DNA of 64,000 bases from the NCBI GenBank assembly GCA_026770025.1, contig JAMXDE010000009.1:1-64000 (forward strand), written 5' to 3'. This DNA comes from Craspedostauros australis. Its lineage: Eukaryota > Bacillariophyta > Bacillariophyceae > Mastogloiales > Achnanthaceae. The translations under genes were made by a program, and so were the position numbers. Positions 805-39,617 of the stretch are shown here, piece by piece. The stretch's first letter is position 1; every line of letters begins with the position of its first letter. The notes beneath the pieces were generated by a model. It was not told the DNA's origin. It worked only from the letters and a program-made list of their open reading frames with translations, and searched no databases.

Positions 805-1093
805 ATTTCGATGTGTATGCTGGCAAACCATTTGAGGAACTCATTGCAGCCACAATCGAATTATTGCGCAAACACATCTGATGGACGAGCCAGAGCACTT
901 GTGTGCATATTCATACAATGGATTTGTGGCAGAAGGGAAGCTTCAATGCCGAGGTCATGCCCAATTCTGACACCACCAAACACAACTACACTCTCCTCAT
1001 CTTCTACCATGGCATCCACTGCCCCATCTGCCCTGGACAGCTCAAACAGATTGAAGTCTACTACTCAGATCTCCTCAAGGCCAACATGAGCAT
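805..1093 (+). pseudogene. Peroxiredoxin-like (AhpC/TSA) gene, 5' fragment cut by a retrotransposon
   Basis: The frame at 903-1093 encodes a thioredoxin-fold segment with a hydrophobic beta strand followed by YHGIHCPICPGQLKQIE. This is the CxxC peroxidatic region of AhpC/TSA-type redoxin proteins (family usually written RGLHCPVC). An upstream piece (DFDVYAGKPFEEL) lies in another frame with a stop between, so the 5' end is already damaged. The frame runs into the LTR at 1094. The continuation (SIVA..., then SMDTKEKA) resumes at 10200 after the target-site duplicate. The enzyme would reduce peroxides with thiols. As it stands the gene cannot make a full protein. The exact start is unknown. Confidence 0.7.
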
Positions 1094-1774
1094 AGTTGAG
1101 ATTCAATGAGGGACAGACTACTACCGAACACGGTATCAACCCGATGGGAGAAATTCCTGTTTTGGCGCGAAATCTTCCGACTTGATTGACCACCAAATCT
1201 TTTCTCCTCCTTTCTCTCCTCCATTCACGAATCCATCATGACCCAAACCTGACCGACCTGACTCACAACCCCCTGGGAACTATATGCTCTTCAGATCCTC
1301 CTTACTACAACATACCTCAATTCCCTCATGCTGCTGACCACCACACTACTACCGTGGTCTAACATGTGTATCCAACTTGCTTCAACTCAAGCAATGGAAT
1401 CCGAGGGTCAGCTTCAGCCACATCCACTGCTTCATGACTGTCATCACTGATTGTCATGATCTACACTACAGTGTAATTACATGTGCGGAGAGCAAAGTAC
1501 TGTATTGACTGTCTACTCTGTTGCACTGAATCAAGTGCATCAGTGCAGGGTCTCACCAAGTTGTGTGGCATCGTTTCTTCACCTACTAACACCAATAAGC
1601 TAACTCATAATAACAGACAAGGATTAGCTACAAAGCACTCTACTTCTCATCGTTACAAGTTATAACTCTTCAAACAGCACACCTCTCTTGAACTGCATCA
1701 CACGGTATCCCGAAGCCGGCAGATTCACGAGGCATTCTCCACCGATTCGCGACGCCTACGCCCGAATCCTAACT
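1094..1774 (+). repeat. 5' LTR of copia element 1
   Basis: The 681-bp block aligns with 9545-10199. Shared segments include GTTGAGATTCAATGAGGG at the left end, a TTTTGGCGCGAAATCT block, and CGCCCGAATCCTA at the right end. It carries the element promoter by family analogy, although no TATA box was assigned. It is about 26 bp longer than the 3' copy. Confidence 0.88.
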
Positions 1775-2114
1775 GTAGCTGCGAGTGGTTGCCAAATACT
1801 CTCTTATCAACTCCACCGAGCATCTTCCTCTGCCAACCGATCGCAAGAGTCTCTCTGAGACGAAGCAAAAGGCACAGCTCGAAGACCGAGCTTCCAACAA
1901 GGACCACGTCCTCACCGCATGCATCTGATCTGAAATCAGATCCCCACCGCTCGAAAACCGAGCCACTCAAGAGGACAAAAGTCCCAGCTGAAGGTAAGCG
2001 ACCCAAGGTCGAACTTCAGTAGCCTCTGCCAAAGCAAGCAATAACCGCACTCGCCGACCGAGTGCGAGCCCCTCCAAGCCTGCATCGAACTTCAGTGCAC
2101 ACCTTCCCAACGAA

Positions 2115-3680
2115 GTGAAGTCGAGCAAGAGCAAGAGAAGGCAAATAGATCGATCCCCTCGAAGTCCGAAGACTATTCGAGAAGTCCCCGTCATCCATCA
2201 TGGCGGAAGAGACACCCCTGCCACGCTGGAAGAGCTGCAAGCGCAGCTCGAAGCGATCACGGTCGAGAACGCTCGCCTCACACAGGCGACGTTGGCGGCC
2301 GAAGCCGCTGCAGAAGCAGCAAACGCGGCCATAGCCACTGCCCAAGCAGCGGCGACAGCCACCACAACCCCAAGCCGTCCCGGTCTCGAGCGCAGCCGCT
2401 CCGCTGGCGACACAAGACCTCGAACGGAACAGTCCTTCCTCGGCGACAGCATCTTCGACATGGAAACTCCCATGCCCAAGAAGAGCAGAAAGTCAGAAGA
2501 GGACAGCGAAGACGACGACCACGACCTCTCTGGGAAACCAACCGTTCCCATCATGGGAGGCATCCTCAAGCAAGGACGCAACTGGGTGCCCTGGACCGCA
2601 GGCGCACCAAACGGACATTGGACCGGCCTCCAAGACGAGTCACACACCAGGTGGACCAACTCTCAACAACAGAGAATCCTCCATAACGGTGCTGACTCCA
2701 CCAACCAGTCCAAGCGAGAGCAAGGACTCACCGACAAGTTCAAGAAAGGAGGGAACATCCAGCAGTTCATTCGCCTGGTGCGAAACCACATGGCAAGAAC
2801 CGGACTCCTCACCATGGCGTACATCGCTGACGCCAACGCAGAGTCAGGGATGACTTGCGTCTTGGACTCACCAGCCGCCTTCACTCTTGAAGATGCCACC
2901 AAGCATTTCGACGAGTTCCATCTGAAGTGGGATCACTACGACGTCCAGAACAACGAGACAGCCTCAGCGTTCTTCCGTGACAGTCTTGATCCAGTCCTCG
3001 AAGACCAGCTCATGAACCGAATCGAGCCGAAGTTCCACGATAACTTCATCACTCTCTTCGTTGAGTTCATGAACAGCAACTCGGCCAACTCCTTGGATGA
3101 ACAAGACGCCCTCGCAGCCAAGATCCGCGAAGTCAACTGCAGACGTTTTCCAAACGAGAACGTTGGTCTCATGGCAGTCCACCTTCGTGCTCTTTGCAAG
3201 CGCCTCGACGACGCCGGTCGCTTTGACCTCCGTCTCCTCCGAACGATCCTCGATGCCTTCCTACAGGCTGGAGGACAGATCCGGTCTGGTGAACAGTACC
3301 GACGTCCTCTCTATGTGATGAAGGATAGCCTTGAGGAAATCCTCATGCGTCTCCCCGTCTTCACGTACGAGTACGCTCGCCCACAGCTTGCCGCAAAAGA
3401 TCTCACATGGATGGCAATCTGCAACAAGGCTGAGGCGTCGTACGAAAACGAAGTGCGCGGAAATCGCTGGCATGCCATCAGGCGTACCAGAGATAGCAAC
3501 GTGCCCAAGTACTCGTACGCCAGCAACGTCGTCCAGAATCCAAGCGCCAACGTTCTCGAGCAACACAAGGGTTTTCTCCAAGAACGACGGAAGGAGAAAC
3601 AACTTCAAGAAGCCCAAGGAACGCGACGCCAAACGCAACGCCAGCCAGGGCTGGTCGTCCAAAGCTCCCAAGCCCGGTGA
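2115..3680 (+). CDS. Copia Gag polyprotein (element 1)
   Basis: The 521-codon frame starts with a basic stretch and an Ala-rich coiled-coil region (about residues 35-80), followed by the capsid-like region typical of copia Gag (residues about 190-440). It forms the virus-like particle that packages element RNA. Near 3560-3600 the conserved sequence moves to the next frame, where a C-x2-C...H...H knuckle (WCAKCRRWRLSH) and hydrophobic segments continue to 4185. The last part of this frame is therefore out-of-frame tail. The shift follows a GGGTTTT run and may be a mutation, a sequencing error or a recoding site. The start ATG is the first in the open frame but is not confirmed. Confidence 0.75.
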   Translation: MKSSKSKRRQIDRSPRSPKTIREVPVIHHGGRDTPATLEELQAQLEAITVENARLTQATLAAEAAAEAANAAIATAQAAATATTTPSRPGLERSRSAGDTRPRTEQSFLGDSIFDMETPMPKKSRKSEEDSEDDDHDLSGKPTVPIMGGILKQGRNWVPWTAGAPNGHWTGLQDESHTRWTNSQQQRILHNGADSTNQSKREQGLTDKFKKGGNIQQFIRLVRNHMARTGLLTMAYIADANAESGMTCVLDSPAAFTLEDATKHFDEFHLKWDHYDVQNNETASAFFRDSLDPVLEDQLMNRIEPKFHDNFITLFVEFMNSNSANSLDEQDALAAKIREVNCRRFPNENVGLMAVHLRALCKRLDDAGRFDLRLLRTILDAFLQAGGQIRSGEQYRRPLYVMKDSLEEILMRLPVFTYEYARPQLAAKDLTWMAICNKAEASYENEVRGNRWHAIRRTRDSNVPKYSYASNVVQNPSANVLEQHKGFLQERRKEKQLQEAQGTRRQTQRQPGLVVQSSQAR

Positions 3681-6600
3681 ACCACAGCGCAAGCTTGTCA
3701 ACGACAAGACTTTCATGTGGTGCGCCAAGTGCCGCCGCTGGCGTCTCTCGCACAACACCGAGAGTCATCAGGACAACTTCAAGTTCAAGGCGAAGGCAAA
3801 GGGCAAGCAAGCTCCCAAACAGGACAACCTCTCCATTGACATGGCTGCGTGGACATGCTTCACAGCCGCCTCCAGTCAAGACGAAGACACCTGGTGGTCT
3901 CTCGTCTGGAACCTCTTCACCTCCTTCAACTACTTCGGTAGCATCGTTGGAATGGTTCTCCTCTTCGCCTCACTCCAAGTCATCACTATCGGAGTAGAGT
4001 ATGGGTGGTACATCGCGGCAGCAAATGCCTGGATGCTAATTGCCGTAACTCTACTACTCCTCCACACGAACGTACCACGAAGACCCGACTCAATCAACTC
4101 TGCTGATCTAGTCTACAACAAGGCACGAGTCAAAGAACGGTACAGCAAGTGCACAAACGTCCAACACACTTCAATGGAGCCGTGAAACGCAGTCTCTACG
4201 ATCTCGTAATGGAAAGTCTCGACCCAGATGGACCCAAACCCGTGAACGTGTCGAAAGGAAACTCCCCACGAACAAAACGTGTGTGGCGTCCCCAGGCTCG
4301 GACCAAAACTCGCAATCACAGATCAAAACGTCGTCACTGGAATCAATCGAAAAATTCCACTTATGGTAAAAACCAAACACCCACGACAGCAAAATTGCCC
4401 CGCCAAAGAAGGTCGCACCTCATCCATCTCACGAAATCTCTGGAGCCTGTACCCAACTCGCGGAATTGACTTGATGTATGATCGAAGTCAAAAGCAACAA
4501 TGTGACAATGACATGCCCGCACTACTCACTCTGCAAGGTCTAGCCTCCTTCTTCTCCAATCGCAATGCTTTCGCATCTCCAGCTAAAGCTGAGAGTATCT
4601 CTCGCCCGATGCTCCATTCGAACTCGTCTGGGACAGCGGAGCATCAATTTCTGTGACAAATGACCTCAACGATTTCTGTTCTACTCCAAGTCCTCCACCA
4701 AGACCGACCTTTCTCAACGGATTCCTCAAGAAAATCCAAGTGAATGCGTTGGGAACCGTCGAATGGTATGTCCTTGATGTAACTGGAAGCCCTCGCAAAT
4801 TGCGACTGCCGCTTTCCATGTTCCCGAATCAAAGGTCAAGCTAATCAGCACTTCCAGTCTCCTGAAGAGTATCAGGGCGAAACGATCGTTTTCGACAAGT
4901 CCTCCTGCAAACTCAGCGGGAATCCTGGGAAACGACGATCGCAATGCAATCGTAGCGAACTACAAGAAGTCCACAAGGCTACCTACATCCGTCGGCTACA
5001 GCGCCGACAACATCCATGACGTGCCAGCTGCACTAACATCCATTGTCACAACCGTTTCGGACCACAACGTGAACCTCACCCAACCGCAAAAGGAACTTCT
5101 TCGGTGGCACTATCGTCTCGGACATTTATCCTTCAGTCGAGTGAAGTTCCTGCTGCGTTCGGGCACGCTCACTGGGTCAGAATCGTCCAGAAAGATGCAC
5201 ACAGCTGCCGCAAGGGTCACAAGCCTTCCGCTCTGTGCCGCATGCCAATTCGGAAAGCTGCACCGTCGCCTTCCCCAGGAATAACTCAACATGTCGTCCG
5301 TGACAAACAAGGAGTTTTGCGCACCGATCACTTGTTCCCAGGACAACAAGTATCAGTGGACCACTTCGTCGGTCGAACGCCAGGACGCCTCTTCTCAGGA
5401 CGAGGCAAAGGCGATCCAAACGAAATGTACAAAGGCGGAGCCATCTTTGTCGATTCACGCATCAGGATACATTCACGTGGAACCTGTGGCAGCGCTAACC
5501 ACGCACGCCACCCTCGAAGCCAAGGAACGGTTCGAACTGATGTGTCGTGATGTTGGAGTCCCCGTACGATCGTATCTATCAGATAACGCCACCACCTTCA
5601 CCTCACCCGAATACTCCAAACACCTTGAAATATTCCATCAAGTCCATCGATTCGCAGGTGTCGGCGCACATCACCACAATGGAATCGCCGAGCGAAGCAT
5701 TCGAACAATGTCTCAATGGCTCGAACCATGATGATGCATCAAAGCATCCACTGGCCAACGATGTTTGATGCTCAACTGTGGCCAATGGCCGTCGTACACG
5801 CCGCGTACATCTACAATCGCGTGCCTAACCCTACACCCCGGCCTCACACCTTACGATGTTTCTGTCACGCATCCGTCTTCCCCTCAAGCAACTTCATAAC
5901 CTGCCACGTGTGGGGCAGTCCAGTCTATGTCCTTACAAAGCACTGGCCGATGGACGCAAGATACCCCGATGGGAGCCAAGAGGAGAGAGATACGTGAACA
6001 TGGGTCTCTCTACGAAGCATGCTTCAACCGTACCTCTAGTCCTATTACCACGGACAGGTTTCAATCACCCCTCAGTTCCACGTCGTGTTCGATGACTGGT
6101 TCGCAACGATTGCTACCGACTTGAAGCAACTTCCAAGCTATCAATCGAAGAATGGACTCGCATGTTTGGTGGACACCACCTTCCAATATCCATTCGATGA
6201 CGACGATGTGGAATCAATGGAGCAGGATGACATCTTCGCATCAGACACGCAAGACCACCAGCCGGTTACAACGCAACGACGATAACACTCCACCACCGAG
6301 AATTGATACTCGAAACCAACAAACCATCCGTGAAAGAACGCCACAGGTATTGGCGAAAGAGTCGCAAACCAATGACGCAACAGATCCCCGATCTCATGAG
6401 TGAAGCTCTCCCCCCTCCGATGCCAGTTTCAGAGGGAGCCAACAGGCAAATGTCTTCGACAGAGGGAGCTCCCGATGAGTCCCCGGTACCTGACTCTACT
6501 ATAGAGTCACCGGATCAGCGAACACTTCAAACCGCAATTGAGTTTCACCTCTCCGAGAATCACCAACACTAGAACCAGCGACTCCATTACCACTTCCAGC

Positions 6601-9490
6601 TCCGACACCAATTCAGACGAGCTCCACGCCACCCATGACACCTAAGTCTGAGCCAACGCCAGAAAGACCTCGAAGCACGAGAACTCGCAAACACCAAAGC
6701 GATTCACGTACGCACGTATGGGAGGCAAAGCAGCCTGGCTGGACGACGAAGACACCGATGATTACTACTTCTGCCCTGCAGTAGCTACCTTGGAAGAAAT
6801 TGAACAGGCCGCAACACCCAGGGAACTGCACCCCGACTCCTCATCGATCATCACATTCTCACAAGCTATCGTCGATTGCTTACATACAATCGAACCTCTC
6901 CAACGCAAAGGTAGCGACTCTCTCTCCATCGATCTACACCATTCAAGGTGGACGCTCACTACTTGTTGCGCAGACTCCGAGGTCGATTCAACACCTTGAA
7001 TCCACAGCCAACAACGTCGTCCTGTCCAACGTTCACTCCAAAGGCGGCTGAAGTAGAAGAAGCAAGCATCAACATGGCTGACTGGTGGCAACCGGACCCC
7101 GACAACATGACCGAGGAAGGAGCGACTCCATTTCAGGAAACGTACAACAACTTTCACTCGGACATGGAGGACCATTTCGAGAAAGACCTCAACAGCGTCT
7201 TCTCACGAAGATTTCCTCCAACTGGCCACTGACCACGCCGTCGAGCAATTCGTGGAGAAGCTGAGTACCTTCATCAGTACTGGCACGATGGAACCCCCAC
7301 TTCGAACGCTCTCGACTTCATGTCAAAGGCCAAATCAGGGCCAATTGTACTACCCAGACCCCGAACATTTGATGAACCAAGGGTACCTTCCACCCAAATC
7401 TGCGTACAGCGCAGAAGCGTTCGTCCAAAGGACTCGCTCCGTTTGGAACGCGATGATCGAAAATTCATAATTACCGTCTCGCATTCGAGCTACTCCGTCG
7501 CCAAGTGGACGACGATCCGACCAGGACCGTGGCTACTTCCAAGCGAATATGAGATTGAGCAATTCGTCCAAGGGGCATGATTGAGTCGAACACGGCGCAC
7601 TCACTTCGGCCCAGCGGCTCGCTCCGCCAACAAAGGATCCATGCTCGACATCGACTCGTCATCCACGCTCGACATCAACCCGTCGTTCATCCTGACACAG
7701 CGGAAGTGCATTCCACCAACCACATGGGCGAACTCGAACAGCATGCCTACTCTTGTCGCAATCATCGAGCCACAGAAGGATGCAACAATAGTACTCCCAC
7801 CTACGTCGATAATCGCATGTATCAGCTACTTTGCCGCAGGTGGCGCCTTGGAGATCGCCGAACGCACCTCGGTGTAGCAGGCATCCAACACCGACCCGTG
7901 ATACTCTCTCCTTCGACTAAGCCATTCGCGACGACGAAACAAAGACGAGTGGATGCAAGCCGCCGAAAAGGAGATTTCGAGATCTCACGGAACAAGGGCA
8001 CGTGGGGCGGAAGTGAAGAAGATCGACTTCAAAAACGATCGCATCTTTCCAGGAACCTGGGTCTTTCGCCGCAAGCGCCTCCGACGGAACCATCAAGAAA
8101 TACAAGGGACGCTGGTGTTGCCGAGGAGACCTTCATGCAAGAGGACGCCTCCACCTACGCACCAGTCGTCGCATGGTCATCCGTCCGAATCTTCCTCAGC
8201 ATTTTCCATCGGTCATGGGTTGGACAACAACGTCCATCGACTTCACGAGACGCTTTCGTGCAAGCATCCATCCACAAGCCAGTCTACCTTCATCCTCCCT
8301 CGTGGATTCAACATCAACGAAGGGTCCCGACACCTGCCTCAAGCTCCGCAAGAGCCTGTACGGTTTGACGATTGCTCCTCGCCTTTGGTATGAACACCTC
8401 ATCCGCGCCCTCACTACCGATTCGGCTTCAAGGCCTGCGACCAAGAGCAGTGCTTGTTCCTTCAAGAGGACATCATGATCGTCCGTCTACGTTGACGATG
8501 CGGGCCATCGCCTCCAAGACCAAGCAAGCGCCGGGACGACTTCATCAAGTCAATGCGCGACCTCGGCTTTGAGCTCACCCAAGAGGGAGCTTCACCGAGT
8601 TCCATGGGAATCCGAGCTCAGCCGTGATCCAAAAGCAGACACGGTCTATCTCGCCAGCCAGGACTAATCAAGAAGATCCTCGCCACTACGAAAATGACGA
8701 ACTGCAGTCCGTGCCCCGTACCAAGCTACGCAGCTCGCACTTGGACAGTGCCAAGGATGAGCCACTCCATGACGAACCATGGAACTACCGCTTCCGTCGT
8801 CGGCATGTTGTTGTATCTCACGACCAACAATCTCCCAGACCTAGCGTTCGCAGTCTCCCAAGTCGCTCGCTTCGGAAGCGACCCTCGCGCTCACACGCCA
8901 AGGCCATCATGCGCCTCATGCTCTTACCTCAAGCACACTGAGGACAAGGGCACCATCGTGCGTCCCACCGGCACTCGATCTCAAGTGCTGCTTGTGGATG
9001 CAGCCTTCGCGGGCTTACGGACGAGAAGACAACAAGACCCCGTCTCCGTCAAGTCGCGCACTGGCTACCTCATCCATTGGGAGGGTGCCCACTCATTGGA
9101 ATCTAAACTCCAACTGAGATTGCTCTATCTACGATGGATCCGAGGTACCCGCTCTCTCTCCTCGCAATGCGCACGCTGATTCCCATCAACAGCTCATCCG
9201 CCAAGTCATCAACACGCCGGCACCACATGCCGCTGCCCCAACCTCAGTGCACGGTGTTTGAGGACACAGCTTGCATTCCCTCGCCACAATCATCAACCAA
9301 CCGCGGGGCACCAAACCTTTCGACTAAGTGGCATTCTTTTGGTACTGGGCTCAAGGCAGGGTTCATCACATCCAGCACATTGCAACACCGGAGCACTGGC
9401 CGACATCTTCACCAAAGATTGTCTATCGCATCTCGAATACCTACGATCAAGATCAGGGTTGGTAATAACCAACACAGAAACAAAACGAAG
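3560..9490 (+). pseudogene. Copia Pol remnants (element 1)
   Basis: Pieces in all three frames give, in order: a zinc knuckle and hydrophobic linker (3700-4185), an aspartic protease with WDSGASISVTND (about 4628-4660), a GAG-pre-integrase HHCC region (RWHYRLGHLS...CAACQFGK, 5100-5265), and an integrase core with SDNATTFTSPEY and HHHNGIAERSIRTM (5455-5735). Then come reverse transcriptase pieces (PGTWVFRRKR, LRKSLYGLTIAPRLWYEHL; 7980-8480) and RNase H pieces (SVVGMLLYLTTNNLPDLAFAVSQVARF and a terminal ADIFTK; 8790-9420). Frames change many times and stops intervene. The region 6100-7900 holds the expected linker but few conserved motifs. A functional polyprotein is not possible from this copy. 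Confidence 0.85.
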
Positions 9491-9544
9491 GATTAAGTTT
9501 TCATCGATCCACAACTCCAATCCCGACCCCACACTGAGAGGGCG

Positions 9545-10199
9545 TGTTGAGATTCAATGAGGGACATACTATTGCCGAACCCGTATCAACCCGATGGGCG
9601 AAATTCTTGTGTTTTGGCGCGAAATCTCCGGCTTGATCGACACCAAATCTTTTCTCTCCTTTCTCTCCTCCATTCACGAATCCATCATGCTGTCAACCTG
9701 ACCGACTGACTCACACGCCACTGGGAACTATATGCTCTTCAATCCTCCTTACTACAACATACTCGATTCCTTATGCTGATGGCCACCTCACTACCACCGT
9801 GGTCTCAACTGTCTATCCAACCGCTTCACTCAAGCAATGAATCCGAGGGTCAGCTTCAGCCACAGCCACTGCTTCATGACCGTCATCACTGATTTCTGAC
9901 CTACACTGCGTGTACTACATGTTCGGCTAGCAAGTCCTGTATTGATTGTCTACTCTGTTGCACTGAATCAATGTGCATCAGTGGGGGTCTCCAAGTTGTT
10001 TGGCATCGTTTCTTCACCTACTAACCCAATAACTACTCATAATAACAGACAGGATTAGCTACAAAGCACTTACTACTGACGTTTACAGGTTATAACTTTC
10101 AACCACCACCTCTCTTGAAGCATCTCACACGGCGATCCCGAAGGCGGCAGATTCACGCGGCATTCTCCACCGATCGCGAAGCTACGCCCGAATCCTACT
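9545..10199 (+). repeat. 3' LTR of copia element 1
   Basis: This is the 655-bp partner of 1094-1774, starting TGTTGAGATTCAATGAGGG directly after a purine-rich tract and ending at the second AGCAT. Compared with the 5' LTR it mainly lacks single bases. Confidence 0.88.
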
Positions 10200-10500
10200 A
10201 GCATCGTCGCATCTCCATGGATACGAAGGAGAAAGCGACGGCATGAAGGACGCAGTTGTCGACAAGAGCGATGCAGAGCTGAAGCTTCCATTGGCGTACG
10301 GCCTCACTGCAGAGCAGGCAAGGAATGGCGACTGGACATGTCAGCTGGTCGCCCAGATACTGCCGAGCCCGCGTATTTTCGGAGCCTGGTCTGTTCGTGG
10401 TGGACGGCAACAAGAACCTGTTCTTCGAGGTCGCATTGGCATCATTCAGCTCTCCGATCGAGGATTTGGTCGGTGTCATTGTGGGCTTGCGTCACTCTAT
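10200..10500 (+). pseudogene. Peroxiredoxin-like (AhpC/TSA) gene, 3' fragment
   Basis: Immediately after the LTR the interrupted reading resumes as SIVA, then in shifted frames SMDTKEKA, then MKDAVVDKSDAELKLPLAYGL (10242 on), then FSEPGLFVVDGNKNLFF and SSPIEDLVGVIVG (10376-10490). Order and spacing match the C-terminal half of AhpC/TSA-like redoxins, where the downstream EPG/FVVD strand and the EDLLG helix follow the active-site helix. At least three one-base shifts separate the pieces. They are either decay after insertion or local consensus errors. The C-terminal end is not clear and may lie beyond a splice site. Confidence 0.68.
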
Positions 10501-11350
10501 CCGGCTCGTGGTCAGATGCACTAATACTTTCAATGAATGTGCGGGTGTGCGACATTTTGTTGTCATGTTGCTATGCGTAACTGATTTCCATTAGCGAGTC
10601 GGACAGGAAGTGATGTTCCATACCATCCGCAAGACAATCCACAAAATTCTTCTGTCTGCATGCAGATGGCTGATGGGTGGAACCGCTGAATCAGTAAGTA
10701 TGTAAATGTGTGGAAAGAAACAATGAAGCACGCGACGAAGATCAGCGATCATAGAATAAGCTCCCGATGATTCGCCATTCACACATGCGTTGCGAATGAT
10801 GAACACTCACGCTCATCATGGGTGGCTTCCCCTATTGGGCGTTGTCTGGGCGCGTCGTTCTTGGTACAGGACGCTGACATCTGGTGCCCATCCATCACAT
10901 GGACAGATCATCACTGCCGGTACTTGACTAGCACCACCGCTGTCATACTATCATGTTTGCCGTGGGACAATACCCATTCGAATAAGACTGTAGTGCGCAG
11001 AGCGTTCCTCTCAATGATTGTATTATATAATAGATACGTCCAAGTACGTATTGGTGATCGAGGATTGGACATTGACACATTACCGCCACATGTCAACGAC
11101 GTCGCCTCAACTCGTCCTCGACTCTGTCGTGCTATTGTCGGAGCGATTGCGCTTCCTTTTTCTGCGAACAATCGAGTTGAGATAAGAATGCACCAGGGAT
11201 GATGACGGGAGGTGACTTGTTTTTTGGCTATAGATTTTGGCAACGCATCAACAACCAACTCATCTCCTCGCATGTGTGTGTGCGCACCATTCCAACCCCA
11301 TCTCTCTTCGCCTATTGGCTTTGATCTTGTGTAGTAACTGTTCTAATATC
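10501..11350. other. Intergenic, nothing recognised
   Basis: Short open frames only. There is no conserved motif, long repeat or splice pattern that I can support. Confidence 0.4.
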
Positions 11351-11393
11351 TTTTAACGAAGTATTGTCGGGCATCGCCCGACACTTGTTAAAA
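11351..11393. repeat. Strong nested hairpin
   Basis: Outer arms TTTTAAC (11351-11357) and GTTAAAA (11387-11393), middle arms AAGT and ACTT, and inner arms GTCGGGC (11366-11372) and GCCCGAC (11376-11382) close on the loop ATC. Together they give 18 base pairs with two small bulges on the left arm only. It lies about 110 bp before the C tract. The function is unknown. Confidence 0.75.
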
Positions 11394-11499
11394 CTACTTT
11401 TTGACACGGGGAGGATCCCTTGTGCTTGCACAATATCCATCCAAGGATGGTCTGGCATTTCACACACCGCCTTGACTGTCCACCACCCCCCATCCAAAC

Positions 11500-11911
<412 letters not shown>

Positions 11912-12379
11912 ACCCACACAACACCACACAAAAAAACTCCATCAACAAACAACCAACACTCCGCTTCCTCACAAGCAACCACCATCGCAGCTCATTGGGT
12001 GGCAACACCTCCCTCCTTGATCTGGCACACCCTATCATTCCTCTCATGCTTTGCTTCTACCCGCGTCAGCGCCAGCAACTGCGGTCGTCCGTACGTGCTC
12101 CACAATTCGGACGGTGATGGTACATCCGCGTGAGTACACGACAAGCAATCAACGGTTGTTGCGATACACGATCCCACATTCTGGAGTTGTGTGAGCAACC
12201 ACGCTCCGATTGGTTTTCCTACGACTACTCTATTGTGGAACACACGTACTTGGAAGAGGAGGATTGCATAATGCTGCCATTGTCGTTGGCGTTGCTGTTG
12301 CTATTGGCATTACAAAGACCGTTCTGTTGTCTCACACACAATCCATCCTCTCTATTCTCTCTCTCTCTCTCTTCTCGCT
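11912..12379. other. Intergenic between the C tract and protease 3' end
   Basis: It contains a (CT)n pyrimidine run at about 12355-12378 that ends in TAG next to the protease stop codon. No gene is supported. Confidence 0.4.
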
Positions 12380-13994
12380 CTAGCAACCATCAGGAATGTT
12401 CTTCAACACCTCCGATCCGATGTTGCCACCAGAGTGCAGCTGCTTTCCGTCGGCGACCAACGCGAAGCCGTCTCCGCTGATGCCATCACCAAAGGCATCG
12501 AAGAAATCAAAGTATGTACAGCGATCACGTGGAACGCATGCCTTGTATTCGGGATACTCAGTGTTGGACCTAATGAAGCCAGACTCGTTCCAGTACTCTG
12601 TGCTCGAATCTTGAGAGTCATACATCATGAAGGATGTGTCTTCTGGGAAATCATCGGTGCGGAGCTTCAACGTGACAGAGATGCAGGAGCTGTCATCATC
12701 GCCACCATCATCGTTGTTGTTGTCATTCTCATCATTGCTGTTTCCACCTCCTGCGCCACACAGCTCGGATGGTACTTTGGACATGGCACATGCATTCTCC
12801 TGTGGGTGTAGGAGTATTGGGAGAGTGGGGAAGAGTACAATAGAATGGAATGGAATAGTGAGCTCGCTGCTGTGATCATACCATACATCTTTGCATACTC
12901 ACCATACTCTCCACACTCTTTCATGCTTCAACCATACTTCGAGCATACTTCCATCATGCATTGACATGCATGCACCCACTCGGATGTACGTACCTTGATC
13001 CATTCGTACGTGTTGCTCACACGAGCGTACACACCAGGATATCGCTGCTGAGCACAGCCGATACCCCAAGACACCACGCCCACCTGGACGCGCTCACCGC
13101 CCTTCGTCACAAACACGGGACCGCCAGAGTCACCCTGACATGAGTCCTTGGCACCCTGGTGGACACCATCCTTCACGAAGCCAGCGCAGAACTCCGCCTC
13201 ATCGCTGACCTGTCCATTGTATCTGTCCTGATTGTTGCACCACGCAGTATCGACCTGCTGGATGTCCAGGCCCATCAGAGTCTCCGATGGGAAGCCGCCA
13301 TCCGATGTGTCACCGAAACCAATCACTGTCATGGTCTGCGGATTTCCTGACCCATCTGTCCCTGGAGTGCCGAACTTGCTGTTGATCTTCATCATGGGCA
13401 CATTGGATGGTGCAGGGTTGGATAGACGGAAGAGCATGATGTCGTTGATCTGAGTGGCAGCGTAGTCTGGATGGACGCGCTTGTCATCGATCTTGCGTGC
13501 GTCAGGTCCTGTTGGCTGGTTCCATGCGAACTCATCATACGCACTGATGATGGCGTCCATTCCGATGGTCTGATCGGAGTCGCAATGTGCCGCAGTGAGG
13601 ACGATGTCAGGTGCGATGAGCGATCCGCCGCATCCCACGGCCCAATGGACGAACTCTGGGTACTCTCCCTTCGTCGCTTCGTTTCCTCCCACGATGTGCG
13701 TCTCGTAGTTGTTGGCATTGATGGAGTGGGTGCGCTTGTTGTGGGTTGGGCTGCTGCCATGTCCATGCCTCTTTGGACGATCTCCGCCACGCGTGGTCTT
13801 CTTCGCGTTGGTGTGAGAATCATGATGATGCGGAGCAGAATTGTTGGTGTGGGCACCGCCTCTGAGTGCGCGCCCTTCGGTGTCATGTTGGGTGTCACGG
13901 CCGGCGGCAGAATTGTGGTCTGTTGCCGATGCGGCGGTGTTTGAGGTAGCCGCGATGATTGCGATGAAGATGGAAGGGCTGATGAAAGTTTCAT
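12380..13994 (-). CDS. Secreted trypsin-like serine protease (S1), two exons
   Basis: Exon 1 runs down to 12994 (donor AAG|GTACGT). Exon 2 is 12799-12380 (acceptor CACAG|GAG), joined in phase 0. The protein has the S1 activation site (THIVGGNEATKG), His in LTAAHC, Asp in INDIMLF, Ser in GDSGGP, and an Asp six residues before the Ser, which predicts cleavage after Lys or Arg. Exon 2 adds a C-terminal domain (LKLRTDDFPEDTSF, then FDAFGDGISGDGF) of the kind attached to secreted diatom proteases. The frame stays open up to an ATG at 14187. A better start is the ATG at 13994: with one more A in its AAA run it would read MKTFISPSIFIAIIAATSNT, a good signal peptide. The gene is probably functional with a one-base sequence error. 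Otherwise the start is 14187 and the protein lacks a clean signal. Confidence 0.82.
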
Positions 13995-14199
13995 GGTTGC
14001 TCGTTCGTGTTGGCGTTGGCGTTGGCGTTGGTGTTGGTGTTGATGGCGAGTTCGAGTGCGAGTACGTTGTTGTTGTGATGCGCTGATATTGTTGCTGTTG
14101 AATGCGATTGGATTTTATGAGATGAGATGAGAAGAGACGACGAGGGATGGAATGGAATCCAAAGGAGGTTGCATTCCACTCATTCATGCATTCCTGTAT

Positions 14200-16393
14200 T
14201 CACTCGTTCGCTGGTGCAGGAGGAGTATGCAGGACTGATACTGCTCTATGGCTTGTGCATGGCACCATCTCGATCGATCATCGAATTGAGTCCATTGCAA
14301 GATAAATGTCGGCGCAGGACTACAATCGGTTGCGGATTGCAAGAGCAAGACCCATGTTGATGGCACTTTGCTCGAGCGGGCGATCCATCGACTGTTGCAT
14401 CTACTTGAGCATACTAGTATGTACTCTCACTCTGCTGGAGTGCTCGTCGCATGTATTCATCATGGCAATTGGTCTTGCTTCTCACCCGTACCCCCAGTTT
14501 CGTTTGTGCCGAGACTCCAATGAATCGTTTGTTCTGATGGATTGGAGCGTCAATTCAATACCATCAACAGTTCTACTTGTGCTAGTCGTGCTAGTTGTGC
14601 TAATAGTGCTACTAGTGTTAATAGTACCAGCGGTGCCGATTGTTGATACTGGTATGAACGACATCGTTTGAGTATTGGTCATGGGATGAGTAGAAGATGT
14701 GATGTGATGCGATGTGATGTGTTGATTTTGTGGCGTTGGTTTTGTTCGACATCGGGAATGACTGGATGTCGCGCCCGCGTGTTTTGATTGGTGACTGTAG
14801 CCGACAGGCGCAACAAGACCAAGAACTGAATCGATTGATCTCGATAAGTGAAATAGCTACAAATATCGCACACTCGTGGTTTGGTCCCGTATTGTTGGGC
14901 TCAATGCCCATTTGTTGTCCTTTGTTGAGACAACTCTCGTCTATTGAATGAACAGTCAAACAGATCGCCACAATTCGCCACAAGTCGCGATGTTTTGTGA
15001 TGGCAAGCAACACTCTGCGACGATCAATCAACCAAGCGACCAAGTGAAAGGCAAGCCACATACCACCCATTCTTCGTGTAGAGTTGCATTCATACGCACA
15101 GCTTCACACGTCGCATGATGTTGGTGTTGCTGTTGGCGCTGTTGGCGCTGTTGGCGCTGCATCTCCATGATGTGCTCTCCATTCAGTATGGTCAGTCTCG
15201 AGCGACGGTAGTGCTAGGTCGTACTGCATGGATGGAGTGGATCGCCAGCGTGCCGGGGGTGCTGGAGTGCTGAAGTTGTTCCAGTCCTGTTCGCCACCAG
15301 TATCGCTTTTTTATTCCTATTCTACTCTTCTATGCCGAGTTCCCATTGTTCTCATCGATTTGTACGGCAGACGGAGATGCACTCGCCATGTGCTGATCGA
15401 TCCGCTGCTCGTGTCCGAATCAACGTGGCTCGAAGTGACTCAGAGCGCGTCCCGAAACAGTTTTTGTTTCAGATTCCTTTGTTCCGAACACCAACGCCGA
15501 ATTGTGGCGGCTATTCACAATCACGATGATGCGGTGGCCTCCGATGTGCATTGAAGTGCCTATCAGGCAGCGCTCCAAGCCTTGAAGAAGAAGAAGATCT
15601 CAAGAGCAAGATCAAGGTCAACGCAACGGAAAAAAGATCACGGGCTGTAGTGGACTGACGGTGACTATTCTCGGCTGGTGAAGTCATGGCCCCATTCATC
15701 ATGATGGCGATGGAGATGGCGCATGTGCAGAATTCGTCGTTGCAGCCGAGGGTCCTGCCGACGACAGTGGAACGATGATCAAGAGTATCTCCGGTTGCAA
15801 CGATGAGGCAACTCGTGGGGTCGTGGCGGCTGAAGAAGCCGAGGCCCGATTCAACAGCATCAAGGACGGTGATGGTGTGAATGATCTGCTGGCCAGAACC
15901 GTGAAGAACGGCGCGAGACTGCTCACTGGTGCGGAGAATGCATGCCGAGGAACCTTTGCTTCGGGATTGCGCACGGTGAAAACAACAAGGTCGGAGACAA
16001 CTTCTTCATCAAAAAGTCTACGTGCCGTGCACGGCCGGCTCCTCATGCCGTCAATGTGCACGTAAAGAAGTGTGCAGCGAGAACAGCACATTGGCCTACA
16101 TAACGACTTGTGACGCAACGTGAACACAAAAAACTCGAGAGAGAGAGAGAGAGAGCTTTCTATTCTGCTTATGGCCACCTAAGTTATGAATACACTTCCA
16201 TCTTGCTTCAACTATTTGCACTACGCAGCCAGAGAATTGAGAGTATTTTGCAGGCCGCGCAGTCGCCGAAGGGTTCGTGTGAATTCCAAATGCTCCCCGC
16301 CTCAGCCAGTCCTTCTCTTCCAGCTGCGCCTGTCCCAAATGTTTTTGCACAATACTATAGCTAAGTTTGTCCTGCGGAACCTCCGCCACCTCT
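14200..16393. other. 2.2 kb without a supported gene
   Basis: It holds a (GTTGGC)n-like leader repeat just before it (14007-14042), a degenerate GTGCTAGT-type tandem at about 14573-14635, a GTTGGCGCT triplication at about 15130-15162, and a (GA)n run at 16138-16157. A frame at 15700-16065 (+) has gene-like composition (AEFVVAAEGPADDSG..., NGARLLTGAENACRG) but no start and no family I recognise. Confidence 0.4.
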
Positions 16394-32596: not shown

Positions 32597-32655
32597 ACAG
32601 AATGAATTCAGACGCTTGCGAGTTGGTAGGTGCTGCAAAGGAGAGACCTCAAGAC
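32597..32655. repeat. 59-bp direct repeat, left copy
   Basis: ACAGAATGAATT, a diverged middle, then TGGTAGGTGCTGCAAAGGAG and AGACCTCAAGAC, matching 39559-39617 in the same orientation. The sequence to the right of the two copies shows no similarity. Confidence 0.8.
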
Positions 32656-33051: not shown

Positions 33052-36000
33052 TTAGTACAAGAATTGACCAAGCAGCGTCTCACCCTTCGGGGCTGGCATT
33101 GTCTTTGTGAATATGTCTGCCAGGTTTGTCATGGTATCCTCTTTCGCTATGCGAATGATACCACTGGCAACAGCCTCTTGGCATCGGTGGTAGGAGATGC
33201 TGTGGTGCTTCTTCGACAGTGTCGAGTGGGGTGTTGATGCATTCTTGAAGACTGCCTCGTTGTCGCAGAACATATTCGTCGGTCCCTTGATAGGTACCCC
33301 AAACATGCGCAGCTTGTATCGAAGCGACGACACCATCTCCACCGCGAGCCTCATTGCAGTGAACTCCAACCCAAAGGTGGAGGTCTCCACCGAGTTCTGC
33401 CTCTTGCTGTACTATTAGCGCACGCTAAATCTCTAACAATAGCGACACCCGTCGACCAATCAGAAATCTCCACTTTTCTTACCTTTTCCGTTCCGAACGG
33501 AAATTTTGGTCGAAAATCCGTTGTGTCAGATTTGTGTCGCATTTCGCGTCGCAAGAATCGTTTTCCCTCAATCACAGATCCAAAAATGCCGCGGAAATTG
33601 ATTTCTTGCCAAGATGAACCAATCTGCCCAATCAGGACAGACTTGGATCTTGGGTGTGACACGTGCGAATCTTGCCATGACCTTCTCAAATGAATACGAT
33701 CAATCGTGCGATCGTACTACTAGCAACATTGTGAGAAGATGTAATTCACAACACGTGGTATCGCGGTGTTTTGTTCATTGACCTTTTGCACCTCATCTTC
33801 ACGCAGTAACACGCACATTTGCCGTGTTGTCTCCGTGTTAATTTCACTTGCAATTTGCATGAGACCTGTCATGCCTCTCTCATGCTCACAGTTCCAAGAA
33901 GACAATCTTGTGAGCTCGACAGCATTTCAACTACCATACGAATAACACAGTAAACAAACACTCTCCTCACCAACAACAACGACTTGATCACTCTACGTTC
34001 TCGGTGCGGTATCTTCAAACCCATCTACGATTACGTTCTAACATGTACCATAGAACCGGTGCACGATTCAGGAAGATGAGTATCCCCGTTTGTGATCACC
34101 TTGTTGCCTTGTCAGCTGTGTGGTTGGCATCCACAAAGCAATGTGTCGATGCTGTGTTGCCTCTGGGCTCTGGCATGTCCATTGGCATGGCTTCCTCAGC
34201 ATTGCGGTAGAAGTCCTCCCATTCAAATGACTGGAAGCAGTCTTCTGATATCCTGGGGTGATCAGGGTCCATCAGCATCGTTCGTCGCGAAGTGTTCTTC
34301 AGGTATCCGAAGATGTGGTAAGCCTGCTCGAGATGTCCGACCCGTGGCATGGCAAGATGGGATGACAGCAGTGACACTTCCAGCAAGATGTCGACTCTGC
34401 CAATCTCAATTGCCCATCGCAGCACACTGATCAGCTCCTGGAACCGCCGCAATCCATCTGCTTTGAGTTCTGGAGTCTCATCTTCTGCTGGATGGTAGCT
34501 GCAAGTGAATGGTGTCCGGCATCCTGATGGTAGTCGTAGTCCTTGCTTGTCCAACTTCTCTTCAACGTTCTCAATGGCTGCCTTGCAGTATTTCTCCGAT
34601 GACACACTCCAACACCGCGTGCCATGTTCATTGCTCTTCTGACTGAGTGATGCACCAAGATACATGTCTGGCGGCTCAACCTTGTCCCCTTTCAATTTGA
34701 AGACAGAAGCAACGCCATTGATGACCTCTCTGGGCTTATGGCTCATCGCCATCACGTTGTCAACATAGCAAAGCACGATCTCGTAGTATTCGAAACCGTC
34801 GGGTTTGGTAGCCGCTCGTAGCCATACGTCTGGATCAGCCTTCGATGATCGGAATGAGCTGTCATGAAGTACACCTGCCAATTTGGCCCGGAATGCTGCT
34901 CCAGAGGACTTCAACCCGTACAGAGCTTTGCGCACAAGCATGATCTGTCCTTCCTCAGCAGCAAACTCCGGTCCTGCCCTGGTCCAGACTTTCTCTTGGC
35001 AGTCTGCTGCCAGGTATGCATTCTGGATGTCACATGCCAGCACCTCCAGATCGTTCATTGCAGCGATGGTCAGCGCGATCCGCACTGAGTCCCTGGATAC
35101 CACTGACAAGTATGTGATGGATGATGGTGTTGTGGTCTTGTGACTCTCAGCCACAAGCCTCGCCTTCTGTCGGAAGTTCTCGTCCAGCTTCACATTGAAT
35201 ATCAGATGGCACTTGATCTGCTGGTATCCTTTTGGTAGCTGCGACTCATCGCCCTTGAATGCCTCGAATGCCAGTCGAACGTTGTTCATCTCCTTCAGGA
35301 TTGAATCCCACCAGAGAGTATTTATGTTCTCTCGATCAACCTCCCTAGCTTTGTTGACTGTCTTGGGAACCCTGACTCCGTACTTGTGCGTCCTTGACCA
35401 GTACTTGGACTTGGTCTTGGATATGATGCAGTCCCATTTCTTGAGGACAATCGGAATCCACCACGCAAAGGCTGGCTCTCCAGCGATGCGATTCTGGGTG
35501 GCATACTCTATTAGTTGCACCAGATATGAATCCTTCATGTCTTTCATGGCGTTCCATGTTGTGCTTCCGTCCTTCCATTGCACCAGCATCTCCCAGCCCA
35601 CCGTTGTCTCTCTTTGGCGTCGAACCCCGTTTCTGGATGAAACAAATGCGTCCTGCTGCTTGATGGCGCTCTCATCGGCCCTGTGATCGAGTATTTCGTC
35701 CACTATGACGTGCCGATGTCCTTCAGCGTCGACCTGTGCGAAAAAGTTCTCAGCGATGACGTTTGCCATCATGGACTGCTTGTGGCCGTCGGCAAACTCC
35801 ACCTCATACATCCTTGTGTCCGTGATGGGATTGTCAGACGCAGTGCCGATGGGCTTGCCACCCTTGTCCCGTAGCCGCTTTGTCACCTTCGCGAATTCAG
35901 GATAATCCCCCCCCCCCCCCGCGATCGATGAATAACTCCATGTTGGTGTATCCGTTGAACTCGTCAGGAGAGAAGGAATCGTCTGCATGGGGCACGGCAT

Positions 36001-37929
36001 GAGTGCCGAACGTGCACCCAAACTCTTCAGCAAAATCCGGGTCGTCCTCCACCAGCTCCGCCCAGGCAGACAGCGCAGGCCTGCCGCCGACGGCTGCCAG
36101 CCGCTCCTCCTTGAAGCGAGCGGATCTCGCGTCGTCAAAGGTCCGAAAACGAGCCTGGTGCTTGTCAATGCTCTTCTCCATCTCCGTATCTTGCTGCACA
36201 GTCGTCCGTGGGACAGGTATGCTGGAGGCTCGAAGCATCCAATATGACATCAAGCTCCCTGTGGTATCGGCAACCCCAAGGAAACGCCCGAGTTGGATCT
36301 CACCCAACCCCACATCCGGATTGAACCAGACACAATCGTAGAATGCAAACTCCAGGTACTCGGAGATGTCCGGGGTCTCACCTGTCAGGTGCTCGATCGG
36401 TGTCCTCCCACCCAACCCACCAGCATTGCTGGCCGTGCGCTGCATGATACGGGCAATGTACGTCAACCCATAGCTCCAGACTCGCCGCGGGCAGTTGGAC
36501 CGAAACATGGTGCGGTACCACGTCCTTCGCAACTCGCGGATGACGCCCTCAGCGGGGTTTTGCTTGTGCCGGCCGACCTCCGAGACTTGTATCTGGATGC
36601 GGTACCGACGTGCTTTCGCCTGGAACTTGCTGTTGCGTCCAACTTGCTCCGGAGCGCCGTCGGCAACCAGCAGATCAGGTGCACCGTACTCGCGTACGAA
36701 TGCCTCCAATGCGTCAGGTGCCTCCGACTTGCGATCGAGGTGGTACGCCTGGACAAAGAACTGCTTGTTGGCAAAGATCTGGGAGTATTTGCGCCCATGG
36801 ATGTCGGTACATCGCGCATGCATCGTGTCGGTGGCCATGGTGCCGTGGATGCGCTTGGGAAGGTACATGCGATCGGCTCTGTATCTGCGTGCCAAGAGCA
36901 TGAGCGCAGATCGGACCAAATGCCTGGTGGTGGCGTGAAGCGTGAGTCTGGCCTGAGCAATGCTGAGGCCCCACTGCCCGCTGAGCTCTTCAGGCGTCGT
37001 CCGTGAGTGGCGATCGAGTGACAAGAAGGCCTGGGAGGTCGTATCTTGGCTTCTGTGATCGGAATCTCCTGTGGAATCGTCGCTTCGCCTGTCTGTGTGG
37101 CCGTCTTGATTGGGAGCTCGATATCTTTGGAGCTGACCTGTATGGACTGGATGAGCCTGGTGTCGAAGGCATGGATATTGTGAATGGCGTCGCTGTGCGC
37201 CTCGGAGTCCCCTGGATGCACACGGACAGCCTTGGCATTCCTCAGCTCGATTTGATCCTGTTTGCGATATGGTGCTTGATGGAACTGCGCCTTTGCTGGT
37301 TCCCATGGTGTGTCGGATAACAGATACATGTGCGGGAGCTGCTGCAGGTTGGAGGTGGACGGGTGCCAGGTGTCGAGGTAGATGATACTACCATCGGACT
37401 TGAGGCACGCGGTGAAGCAGCCGTCGTCCTGTGCTATCTCCATGGGTTGTCCCTCATTTGGGTTGTCCTGCACAGTCACGCCGTGATGGCACAACTGATT
37501 CGGGTTCACCAACATATGGTCGAGGTCCGGCATGTACAATGCTTTGTGCATGACCGGGATGTATCGTCTTCTATTCGCAGAAGTGTATCCAGTCACTGCA
37601 GTGGCGATGGGGACATCCGTGATGGGCGAGTATGTCTCTGTACACAGTGATACATGACAGCACCTCTCTGTGCAATGAAGCACAACCGTCTGTTTGCCAG
37701 CGACGATTGTATCCGCATGCGAGTCCACTTCCATCCTTGCCTGGACGCCTCTGGCGTTATGCGTGTTCTGCGCAGACACCGTCCCGATCCTCCTGGTGCG
37801 AGCAGAGGGCTGAATCGCAGCAACCTGTAGTTTGTACGCGCGAGACTGGTTTGATGATATAATGAGTGCTATCAGACTGTTAATCCAACCGCCGCTCACT
37901 ATGGCCATCCACCAATCACGCCACAAATG
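33052..37929 (-). pseudogene. Copia Pol (element 2): protease, integrase, RT, RNase H
   Basis: From right to left: a hydrophobic helix (WWMAIVSGGWINSLIALIIS, about 37855-37920), a protease with MEVDSHADT (Asp-Ser-His in place of Asp-Ser-Gly), and an integrase with Asp in TDTMHARCTD, Asp in VADGAPEQ and Glu in NPAEGVIRELRR. Next is a chromodomain-like linker (about 35500-35710; LVQWKDGSTTWNAMKDMKDS). Reverse transcriptase follows with Asp in ACDIQNAYL, but YVDN at 34756-34767 where YVDD is expected. RNase H pieces come last (SQTGILIFLNRAPVLWY, 34044-34095; STFGLEFTAMRLA to LADIFTK, 33052-33400). Two frameshifts, one stop and one insertion break the frame. Confidence 0.85.
33413..34043 (-). mobile_element. 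Solo LTR nested in the RNase H domain of copia element 2
   Basis: The RNase H reading ...VLWY breaks at 34043 and resumes with SVETSTFG-like sequence left of 33413. The 631-bp insert is flanked by TGTAC at 33408-33412 and 34044-34048, a 5-bp target duplication. On the minus strand it starts TGTTAGAACG, typical of a copia LTR, and ends GCTAATA rather than the usual CA. It has no coding capacity. A solo LTR forms when the two LTRs of an inserted element recombine. A short non-autonomous element is the alternative. Confidence 0.7.
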
Positions 37930-39369
37930 TCAGTTGCCGGAGCCGCTCCTCTTCGAGTCTCTGCCACCGAATGAGTTGCCAGCTTGGTCGTTGCGTCCTT
38001 GGGGCTGCTTGGTGAGCTGGTTGACTGTCTGCAACAGGTCTTGCTCATGCTTGCTCTGCTCCTCGCTCGACGTCTTGAGCTGGCTGATCTGTTGTTTGAG
38101 CTTCTTGACCTGGCGTTTGGATGGTGAGTTGGTGCCGCCTGGCCTCCTGCCACGCTGTCTTGGGGGTCTGGCCTTCAGGATCTCGGCATGATATGGCTTG
38201 ACCTCATCACTGAACCATTGGCTGCGGTCGTACTTCCCAATGTAGATGGAACCGTCAGTTGTGATGGCTCCTACAGCGGGAGCAGGACCTTCGGCTGTGT
38301 AGCGACCGGTAGATGTCGTTTTGCACACATAGCGGGAGCTCTTCACCGTCGTTGACTGCTCTGGGATCTCTTTTGCAAAACGGAGAAGCACCTCCTTGTA
38401 ATCAGGGACAGGTTCGCCGTACGAGAGCTTGAGGGCAATCTTGAATGGCTGCATGCCCGGTGCCAGGATGGATCCAAAGATGGCATCCACGATGTCTTGG
38501 TTGTGCATGGGGATGTCGCACTCTTCAAGGGCGTCCACAGCTCGCTGCAGCTGGGAGGAGAACTTTTCAAAGGAGAAGTTCCTCTTGCTCTGGTATCGCA
38601 TGGTCGCGATGGTCTTCTTGGTTTTTGACGCTTGTGCGTCTAGGCTGGCCTTGCTGTTGTAGCGGGCCTGCAGTGCCAGGAAGTTCTTACAGCTATTGTG
38701 CTTGTGGATGGTGGACTGGATGTAGGTGTAGGCGTCCGAGTCTGGCGCCATGTTCTGCAGGATGACTTGATGCACGGTTGCGGCATCCTGGATGAACTCC
38801 TCACCGGTGTGAGGTGCCAGTGCCACCGCGTTCTCCTCCCATGTGAGGTCGAGGTCCCATGCGTCAGCCGGTTCTGCTCGTATAACATACCAGATGGGGA
38901 TGCCTCGCATACCGATGATGGACCAAAGGATGCTGTCCAGTCCATCACCCCAGCGCTTCCACTCGAGCGACGACTTCAACAGGATGCCGAATGGCTTCCC
39001 GATCAATTTGTCGCCCTTTGTGCGTCGGTTCTTGCGCTGCTCGATGCGGTCCGTCGCATCCGCGATGCTGTTGAGGAATGTGGCTTGGCTGGTGCCTTCT
39101 GCGAAGGCAAACTCTTGTCGGATCCTGTGTTGGTCATCAACCCAGTGTGCCAGCGATGCCAGCCTCTTCTTGATTGCCCTGTTGATGAAGATGACATTGT
39201 CTCCTTTCGCAAGTGCATCGCAGGTGTCGTCGATGGTCTTCACCGTCTCGCCTCTCATGGTTGCCATTCCCAGTGGATCAGGGGCAAAGGTGTCCTTGAC
39301 TGCGTCTCTGACTGCAGGGACGCTCAGGCCGCACCACTCGAACATCGTCTGAAACGAGATGACCGCCAT
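37930..39369 (-). CDS. Copia Gag (element 2)
   Basis: A 479-residue intact frame. Capsid-like helical segments (SLEWKRWGDGLDSILW, FEKFSSQLQRAVDALEECDI, MHNQDIVDAIFGSIL) are those of copia Gag. A basic linker and a coiled coil near the end (KKLKQQISQLKTSSEEQSKH) follow, but no CCHC knuckle is visible. The frame closes with TGA followed by C, and pol continues in the same frame, so a Gag-Pol fusion would be made if the TGA were read through. Gag would build the particle around element RNA. Confidence 0.82.
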   Translation of the reverse strand: MAVISFQTMFEWCGLSVPAVRDAVKDTFAPDPLGMATMRGETVKTIDDTCDALAKGDNVIFINRAIKKRLASLAHWVDDQHRIRQEFAFAEGTSQATFLNSIADATDRIEQRKNRRTKGDKLIGKPFGILLKSSLEWKRWGDGLDSILWSIIGMRGIPIWYVIRAEPADAWDLDLTWEENAVALAPHTGEEFIQDAATVHQVILQNMAPDSDAYTYIQSTIHKHNSCKNFLALQARYNSKASLDAQASKTKKTIATMRYQSKRNFSFEKFSSQLQRAVDALEECDIPMHNQDIVDAIFGSILAPGMQPFKIALKLSYGEPVPDYKEVLLRFAKEIPEQSTTVKSSRYVCKTTSTGRYTAEGPAPAVGAITTDGSIYIGKYDRSQWFSDEVKPYHAEILKARPPRQRGRRPGGTNSPSKRQVKKLKQQISQLKTSSEEQSKHEQDLLQTVNQLTKQPQGRNDQAGNSFGGRDSKRSGSGN

Positions 39370-39558
39370 CTTGTTGGTGGAGCGATGTTGGATGCTGCCA
39401 ACCTGATCGCTCGATCCGTTGGTTGATCAACACCAACGTCCCTCTCTCGGTGTTTTCGGGATGCTCGGCGTTCGTAGCTGCGCGCCGTTCCCGTCTCCTC
39501 GTCTGCCTGCATGTAGCACAGCAGGGAAGTGATATGCAGCACTGCAGGAAAGTGATAA

Positions 39559-39617
39559 ACAGAATGAATTATGATGTTTGTAAGCTGGTAGGTGCTGCAA
39601 AGGAGAGACCTCAAGAC
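39559..39617. repeat. 59-bp direct repeat, right copy
   Basis: Partner of 32597-32655. It begins 190 bp outside the gag start of element 2. Similarity stops sharply on both sides, so it is not part of a long LTR pair as far as I can see. Confidence 0.8.

Follow-up and report, generated by a model that had tools for sequence, protein, structure and literature searches.

Ty1/copia retrotransposons of the diatom CoDi groups are flanked by target-site repeats and include insertions whose site is empty on the other haplotype, according to the portion of Maumus et al. 2009 (PMC2806351) drawn on here, which also lists three of 26 diatom copia families (CoDi3.2, 4.2 and 4.3) as devoid of TG/CA ends. 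The available excerpt on Tos17 of rice gives ANGTT-TSD-AACNT as consensus around its target-site duplication (TSD) (PMC6911290), and that on copia elements of Rosaceae gives TG...TT or AA...CA as ends of the long terminal repeats (LTRs) and TSDs of 4-6 bp (PMC5659011). LTRs are reported to undergo gene conversion in plants (PMC7251063, in part); in the sections considered, this process is stated to alter the LTRs of otherwise intact elements and thereby to mislead their dating (PMC7251063, PMC4921805). Here we describe a ~9.1-kb Ty1/copia-type element in a 64,000-nucleotide stretch of Craspedostauros australis (hereafter the window; bases 1-64000 of contig C7 in an assembly of 74.8 Mb and 90 contigs), which very probably interrupts, in sense direction, one copy of an AhpC/TSA-family gene.

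The element shares with the CoDi elements its Ty1/copia type and its target-site repeats. Compared with their published description, as far as that excerpt goes, its family is set apart by LTRs of 685-687 bp ending in AGTT...AACT. LTR ends other than TG/CA are not new in kind, since they were already reported in diatom copia families (PMC2806351, same portion). Like Tos17, as partially described, the family displays a 5-bp TSD within a symmetric preferred target, which reads W-T-G before and C-A-W after the TSD, in contrast to the rice consensus (PMC6911290). It resembles the Rosaceae elements in combining non-canonical LTR ends with short TSDs; however, the end dinucleotides in the excerpted account of the latter are not palindromic, in contrast to AG...CT (AGTT/AACT) here (PMC5659011). 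Compared with LTR conversion as outlined in these excerpts, the window offers a single case, in which a stretch resembling a copy on contig C8 ends at the 3' LTR end and no donor was found for the 5' LTR.

The insertion and its empty counterparts

AGCAT was found exactly at 1089-1093 and again at 10200-10204, as stated in the original prediction, with direct repeats of ~680 bp lying directly inside both copies. The odds of a chance identity of five bp at two fixed positions are ~1 in 1024. The duplication was regarded as beyond chance because six of nine paralogous loci displayed one AGCAT and because the outer 5-bp flanks were equal in 27 of 31 distinct sampled copies of the family (both flanks in hand, window copy counted; L104, with the same flanks as L103, was omitted). 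Searches of the whole assembly with the 314 bases preceding the element and the 701 following it gave 10 and 13 scored matches, respectively (own locus counted, some loci in pieces). Left and right matches overlapped by exactly 5 bp at six loci, as expected of an empty site, and no empty site lacking a single AGCAT was encountered among them.

Both flanks belonged to one protein family. A full-length paralog matched AhpC-TSA (PF00578) with an E value of 1.8e-13 and 51 bits (Pfam cut-off 26), and the two gene pieces aligned to successive profile positions, 21-59 for the left and 62-120 for the right (E 5.6e-4 and 6.9e-3). A search for flanks derived from different proteins thus found none, and the earlier proposal of a single gene split by a single copia insertion was upheld. 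The product is predicted to be peroxiredoxin-like on the basis of this profile and of the CxxC motif HCPIC. Similarity to solved structures was weak (best E 0.0067). NCBIfam NF040769 (SelL-related redox proteins) has in common with the gene the AhpC-TSA region with its CxxC (HCPIC), at a score (33 bits) far under the cut-off of 120.

The left-hand reading, ending in ...LLKANMS, continued as I-V-E-I-Q-stop within the LTR, hence with a stop five codons past Ser, and the right-hand reading restarted at SIVA. The prediction that the frame ends at Asn-Met-Ser and resumes with Ser-Ile-Val-Ala therefore held for the order of the motifs; a single open right-hand frame was not present in the window, where it is frameshifted, and was found on a second contig (C53), on which this gene half was open as far as its stop.

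The same insertion was assembled there at C53:19910-29056 (minus strand) as cleaner sequence. C7:1-30422 recurred in reverse as C53:1-30149 without having been merged, the left 314 bp being identical on both, and we infer that these are two unmerged contig ends of one locus. Differences, comprising many small indels and some substitutions, clustered at window positions 7-12 kb and 27-30 kb, the latter cluster falling at the end of C53; between 12 and 27 kb they did not exceed one or two per kb, apart from three at 26-27 kb. As C53 was without the indels, the broken frames of the window were ascribed to poor consensus near the contig end. Most of its frameshifts are thus most likely consensus errors rather than decay and are uninformative on age. 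Real decay of gag-pol and of the gene half was rejected as their main cause, C53 being free of these indels. Frameshifts at contig ends can accordingly pass for decay.

In copia order, the C53 gag-pol, a single open frame of 2438 codons, displayed GAG-pre-integrase (1.2e-10), an SH3-like domain and RVT_2 (7.8e-40) in Pfam. Some observations weigh against a complete copia assignment: the SH3-like match, located before RVT_2, was sub-threshold (3.3e-4, 21 bits against a cut-off of 27), the integrase catalytic core of this gag-pol had no Pfam match, and RNase H was likewise unmatched, its last 438 codons giving RVT_2 only. Two pol pieces taken from the window itself had no Pfam match.

Two other explanations of the locus were weighed. 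If the end of contig C7 had joined gene pieces across a repeat, the interruption would be an assembly artefact; the window is indeed the start of C7, carries many indels relative to C53 at ~7-12 kb and overlaps C53 in reverse. However, the orderly C53 sequence has the same junctions, the gene pieces stand in paralog order, and the 5-bp duplication is perfect, as in 26 other sampled copies, so that an artefact is hardly credible. Chimerism of the assembly as whole explanation was rejected on account of the junctions on C53. Alternatively, the gene copy might have kept its function, with the element spliced out like an intron or with each half being used by itself. In favour of this, C53 has open frames on either side of the element, which is inserted in sense orientation; on the other hand, the 5' frame runs into the early stop mentioned above, the copy has no N-terminus, and a 9.1-kb element would be exceptional as an intron. 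Retained function is accordingly most improbable.

Several points count against the insertion as proposed. Three of the nine paralog loci (two on contig C6, one on C41) failed the search expression for the AGCAT site; each gene piece alone stayed under the Pfam cut-off (26 bits; the pieces scored 20.3 and 16.8); four of the 31 sampled copies, forming two pairs with identical flanks, were without equal flanks; and an empty allele of the interrupted locus was sought in the assembly and not found, the known empty sites being paralogs. We nevertheless hold it to be very probable that a copia element inserted into one AhpC/TSA-like gene copy and duplicated AGCAT. The element integrated at the Ser-Ile codon pair of this copy and duplicated the target, as shown by its anatomy and by the empty paralogous sites. 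The event is an ordinary one, namely a copia insertion with target duplication into one of several copies of a gene, made unusually plain here by sister genes that have stayed uninterrupted and display the empty site. Coordinates are collected in Table 1.

Table 1. Parts of the interrupted locus (window positions) and paralogous sites devoid of the element (contig positions)
Feature	Position	Strand	Remarks
5' part of interrupted AhpC/TSA-family gene copy	918..1093	+	MDLWQKG... to ...LLKANMS; CxxC motif HCPIC
Target-site duplication AGCAT, left copy	1089..1093	+	abuts 5' LTR
5' LTR	1094..1774	+	AGTTGAG...CCTAACT
Putative primer-binding site	1775..1793	+	directly after 5' LTR; GTAGCTGCGAGTGGTTGCC in window, GGTAGC... 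on C53; presumed function
Internal region, gag-pol	1775..9544	+	broken in window by indels absent from C53
Putative polypurine tract	9536..9544	+	GAGAGGGAG before 3' LTR on C53 and other copies; altered in window; presumed function
3' LTR	9545..10199	+	lineage of C8/C32/C5 copies
Target-site duplication AGCAT, right copy	10200..10204	+	abuts 3' LTR
3' part of interrupted gene copy	10200..10524	+	SIVAISMDTKEK... to ...PARGQMH stop on C53; frameshifted in window
Empty paralogous site	C53:147066-148095		single AGCAT, 5-bp flank overlap
Empty paralogous site	C7:733269-733746		single AGCAT, 5-bp flank overlap
Empty paralogous site	C7:1019694-1020172		single AGCAT, 5-bp flank overlap
Empty paralogous site	C7:1150688-1151166		single AGCAT, 5-bp flank overlap
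Empty paralogous site	C15:443405-443878		single AGCAT, 5-bp flank overlap
Empty paralogous site	C70:133168-133586		single AGCAT, 5-bp flank overlap

The copies with unequal flanks were L068 and L070 (C57:14 kb and C7:2686 kb), and L094 and L100 (C8:434 kb and C3:3631 kb). Neither pair displayed a matching TSD, and within each the same flanks were found at both places; they may be additional duplicated segments, or contig ends left unmerged around copies that have recombined.

The mismatched LTR pair

Reverse transcription should yield identical LTRs. The pair in the window matched at 600 of 685 aligned columns, with 44 substitutions and 41 gap columns, and on the C53 reading it still differed by 24 substitutions and one gap. 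Other pairs were compared in a sample made of the best 40 of 362 candidates and of 20 of 25 new ones from a later search, so that pair statistics lean toward copies resembling the query: 18 of 19 pairs displayed zero or one substitution and the remaining one 14. The window 3' LTR and an incomplete LTR on contig C64 were excluded from alignment and tree. The C53 3' LTR was only two substitutions from a C8 LTR and fell in a supported group of eight (99/96), whereas no fewer than 23 substitutions separated the C53 5' LTR from any of the 57 other LTRs aligned. Sisterhood of the two was rejected (p-AU 0.022). The error-rich C7 3' LTR also belonged to the C8 group, with 22-27 substitutions to its members and 36-45 to the other compared LTRs. 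The resemblance to the C8 copy extended inwards: one difference from it was found in the ~305 internal bases next to the 3' LTR, and 18 in the preceding 595 bases. As regards the 5' LTR, a donor search using 251 bases from among its most divergent gave 95% as best match outside the locus (on C64; 40 of 316 candidates scored).

Since the LTRs of one insertion should be identical, the mismatch points to an exchange with cDNA or with another copy. The LTRs would have acquired their different lineage membership during integration or later, most likely through gene conversion or homologous recombination, the partner being another copy or its cDNA, and either LTR may be the replaced one. Against this stands the possibility that C7 and C53 share reads, in which case a chimeric assembly could add to the discordance. 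Dating of the insertion by LTR divergence was rejected, the two LTRs belonging to different lineages despite intact TSDs. More generally, LTR divergence misdates an insertion whenever its LTRs come from different lineages.

An old insertion in which both LTRs had simply mutated would account for the 24 substitutions and the gap; the test against sisterhood was moderate (p-AU 0.022), and a pair on contig C55, with its TSD, differs by 14 substitutions and still groups as sisters. However, the 3' LTR, two substitutions from a C8 LTR and carrying rare variants of that subfamily, argues against ageing. At the 25 differing columns, moreover, the 5' LTR state was present in other LTRs at 19 and in none of the 56 others at six, and some internal stretches were one to three in 400 from another copy. 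Ageing therefore appears unlikely. Equally doubtful is that an old solo LTR in this gene copy was rebuilt to full length by recombining with young cDNA of another lineage, so that TSD and 5' LTR would be old and internal part and 3' LTR young; if true, a fixed site would have gained its retrotransposon via recombination rather than integrase. Exchange between copies, or with cDNA, thus remains the favoured origin of the mismatch.

The C55 pair is formed by L102 and L088 (224 kb and 233 kb; TSD CATGT) and is probably an insertion of greater age within this family.

The gene family and the copy hit

A protein search of the assembly uncovered ~10 loci of the gene family, the interrupted copy included. 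Four were full-length without stops. Two on C6 contained stops, C70 and C41 harbored one each in pieces, and an empty, N-truncated sister of the interrupted copy was found on C53 (at 147 kb). The interrupted copy and this sister matched the full-length protein only from residue 32, the first ~31 residues being without counterpart, and upstream of the truncation both displayed the same, different sequence. Their similarity extended past the gene, with window 11891-15116 matching C53:148706-151900 at 90.5% over a frame which, read by eye, resembles a trypsin-like protease. Because the similarity continues beyond the gene, the two loci are taken to stem from a segmental duplication.

Constraint was compared by dN/dS, the two gene pieces being counted apart and then summed, and the C70, C6 and C41 copies being excluded (frameshifted, with stops or in pieces). 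The ratio was 0.50 between interrupted copy and sister, against 0.08-0.13 in all six pairs among the four full-length paralogs. The excess of amino-acid changes in the former pair was significant against the two full-length pairs tested (Fisher p 0.0005 and 0.0002, from rounded counts). A copy from an N-truncated pair under weaker constraint would be a spare one, and the copy hit was thus probably a relaxed, dispensable duplicate. Three results argue for more constraint than this: dN/dS of the interrupted copy against the four full-length paralogs was 0.15-0.23, the value of 0.50 is still below 1 (p 0.03, rounded counts), and the sister frame is open. The copy may therefore have been at work before the insertion. 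If it was indeed dispensable, the locus offers a clear case of pruning by a retrotransposon, which took out a spare copy where several family members are broken, the empty paralogous sites serving as controls.

Element family, target preference and neighbouring features

The element family is large and recently active in this 74.8-Mb genome, as indicated by 97 exact genome-wide matches to the primer-site pattern, counted without distinction between elements and genes, and by the LTR pairs differing by at most one substitution in 18 of the 19 other pairs sampled. The sequence GGTAGCTGCGAGTGGTTGCC after the LTR was conserved in many copies. No cognate tRNA for the putative primer site was shown among the 97 pattern matches, and no tRNA gene was present in the window. 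Sampled LTRs displayed AGTT...AACT ends and not the TG...CA that is usual, though not obligatory, in Ty1/copia elements, the exceptions being the error-rich 3' LTR of the window and the C64 LTR lacking full length.

The target of the family was roughly WTG-TSD-CAW, hence palindromic. Among 91 distinct left flanks, the trinucleotide preceding the TSD had W in 82, T in 47 and G in 44; among 94 distinct right flanks, the one following it had C in 44, A in 36 and W in 81. These sets excluded duplicates, one polypurine-preceded sequence and one primer-site sequence; one search pattern omitted sites with T at -10, and the other, which covered 100 of 116 matches, those with G at +10. T was the first TSD base in only five of the 91 left flanks and A was rare at the last TSD base. 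The left TG dinucleotide occurred in 30 of 91 flanks as against at most 10 at control offsets. The right half of the palindrome was less distinct, CA being found in 19 of 94 flanks and in 18 of 94 at the highest control offset (p 0.44). The window target ATG-AGCAT-CGT fitted the family pattern except at the second right-hand base. Together, AGTT...AACT ends and palindromic target should aid annotation of the family, which searches depending on TG...CA would miss.

Just 3' of the interrupted gene, a U2 spliceosomal RNA gene was identified at 11298-11488 (+; Rfam RF00004, 100 bits), and DNA resembling this region was found at C53:142294-142604 (94.6%). A long C-rich simple repeat followed directly at 11490-11890; C7 and C53 failed to align at ~11.5-11.9 kb. 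A second copia-type element was located at 34096-39426 (-; RVT_2, E 5.9e-20). Direct repeats of 59 bp, 88% alike and 6962 bp apart, surround it (32597-32655 and 39559-39617) and are possible remnants of its LTRs.

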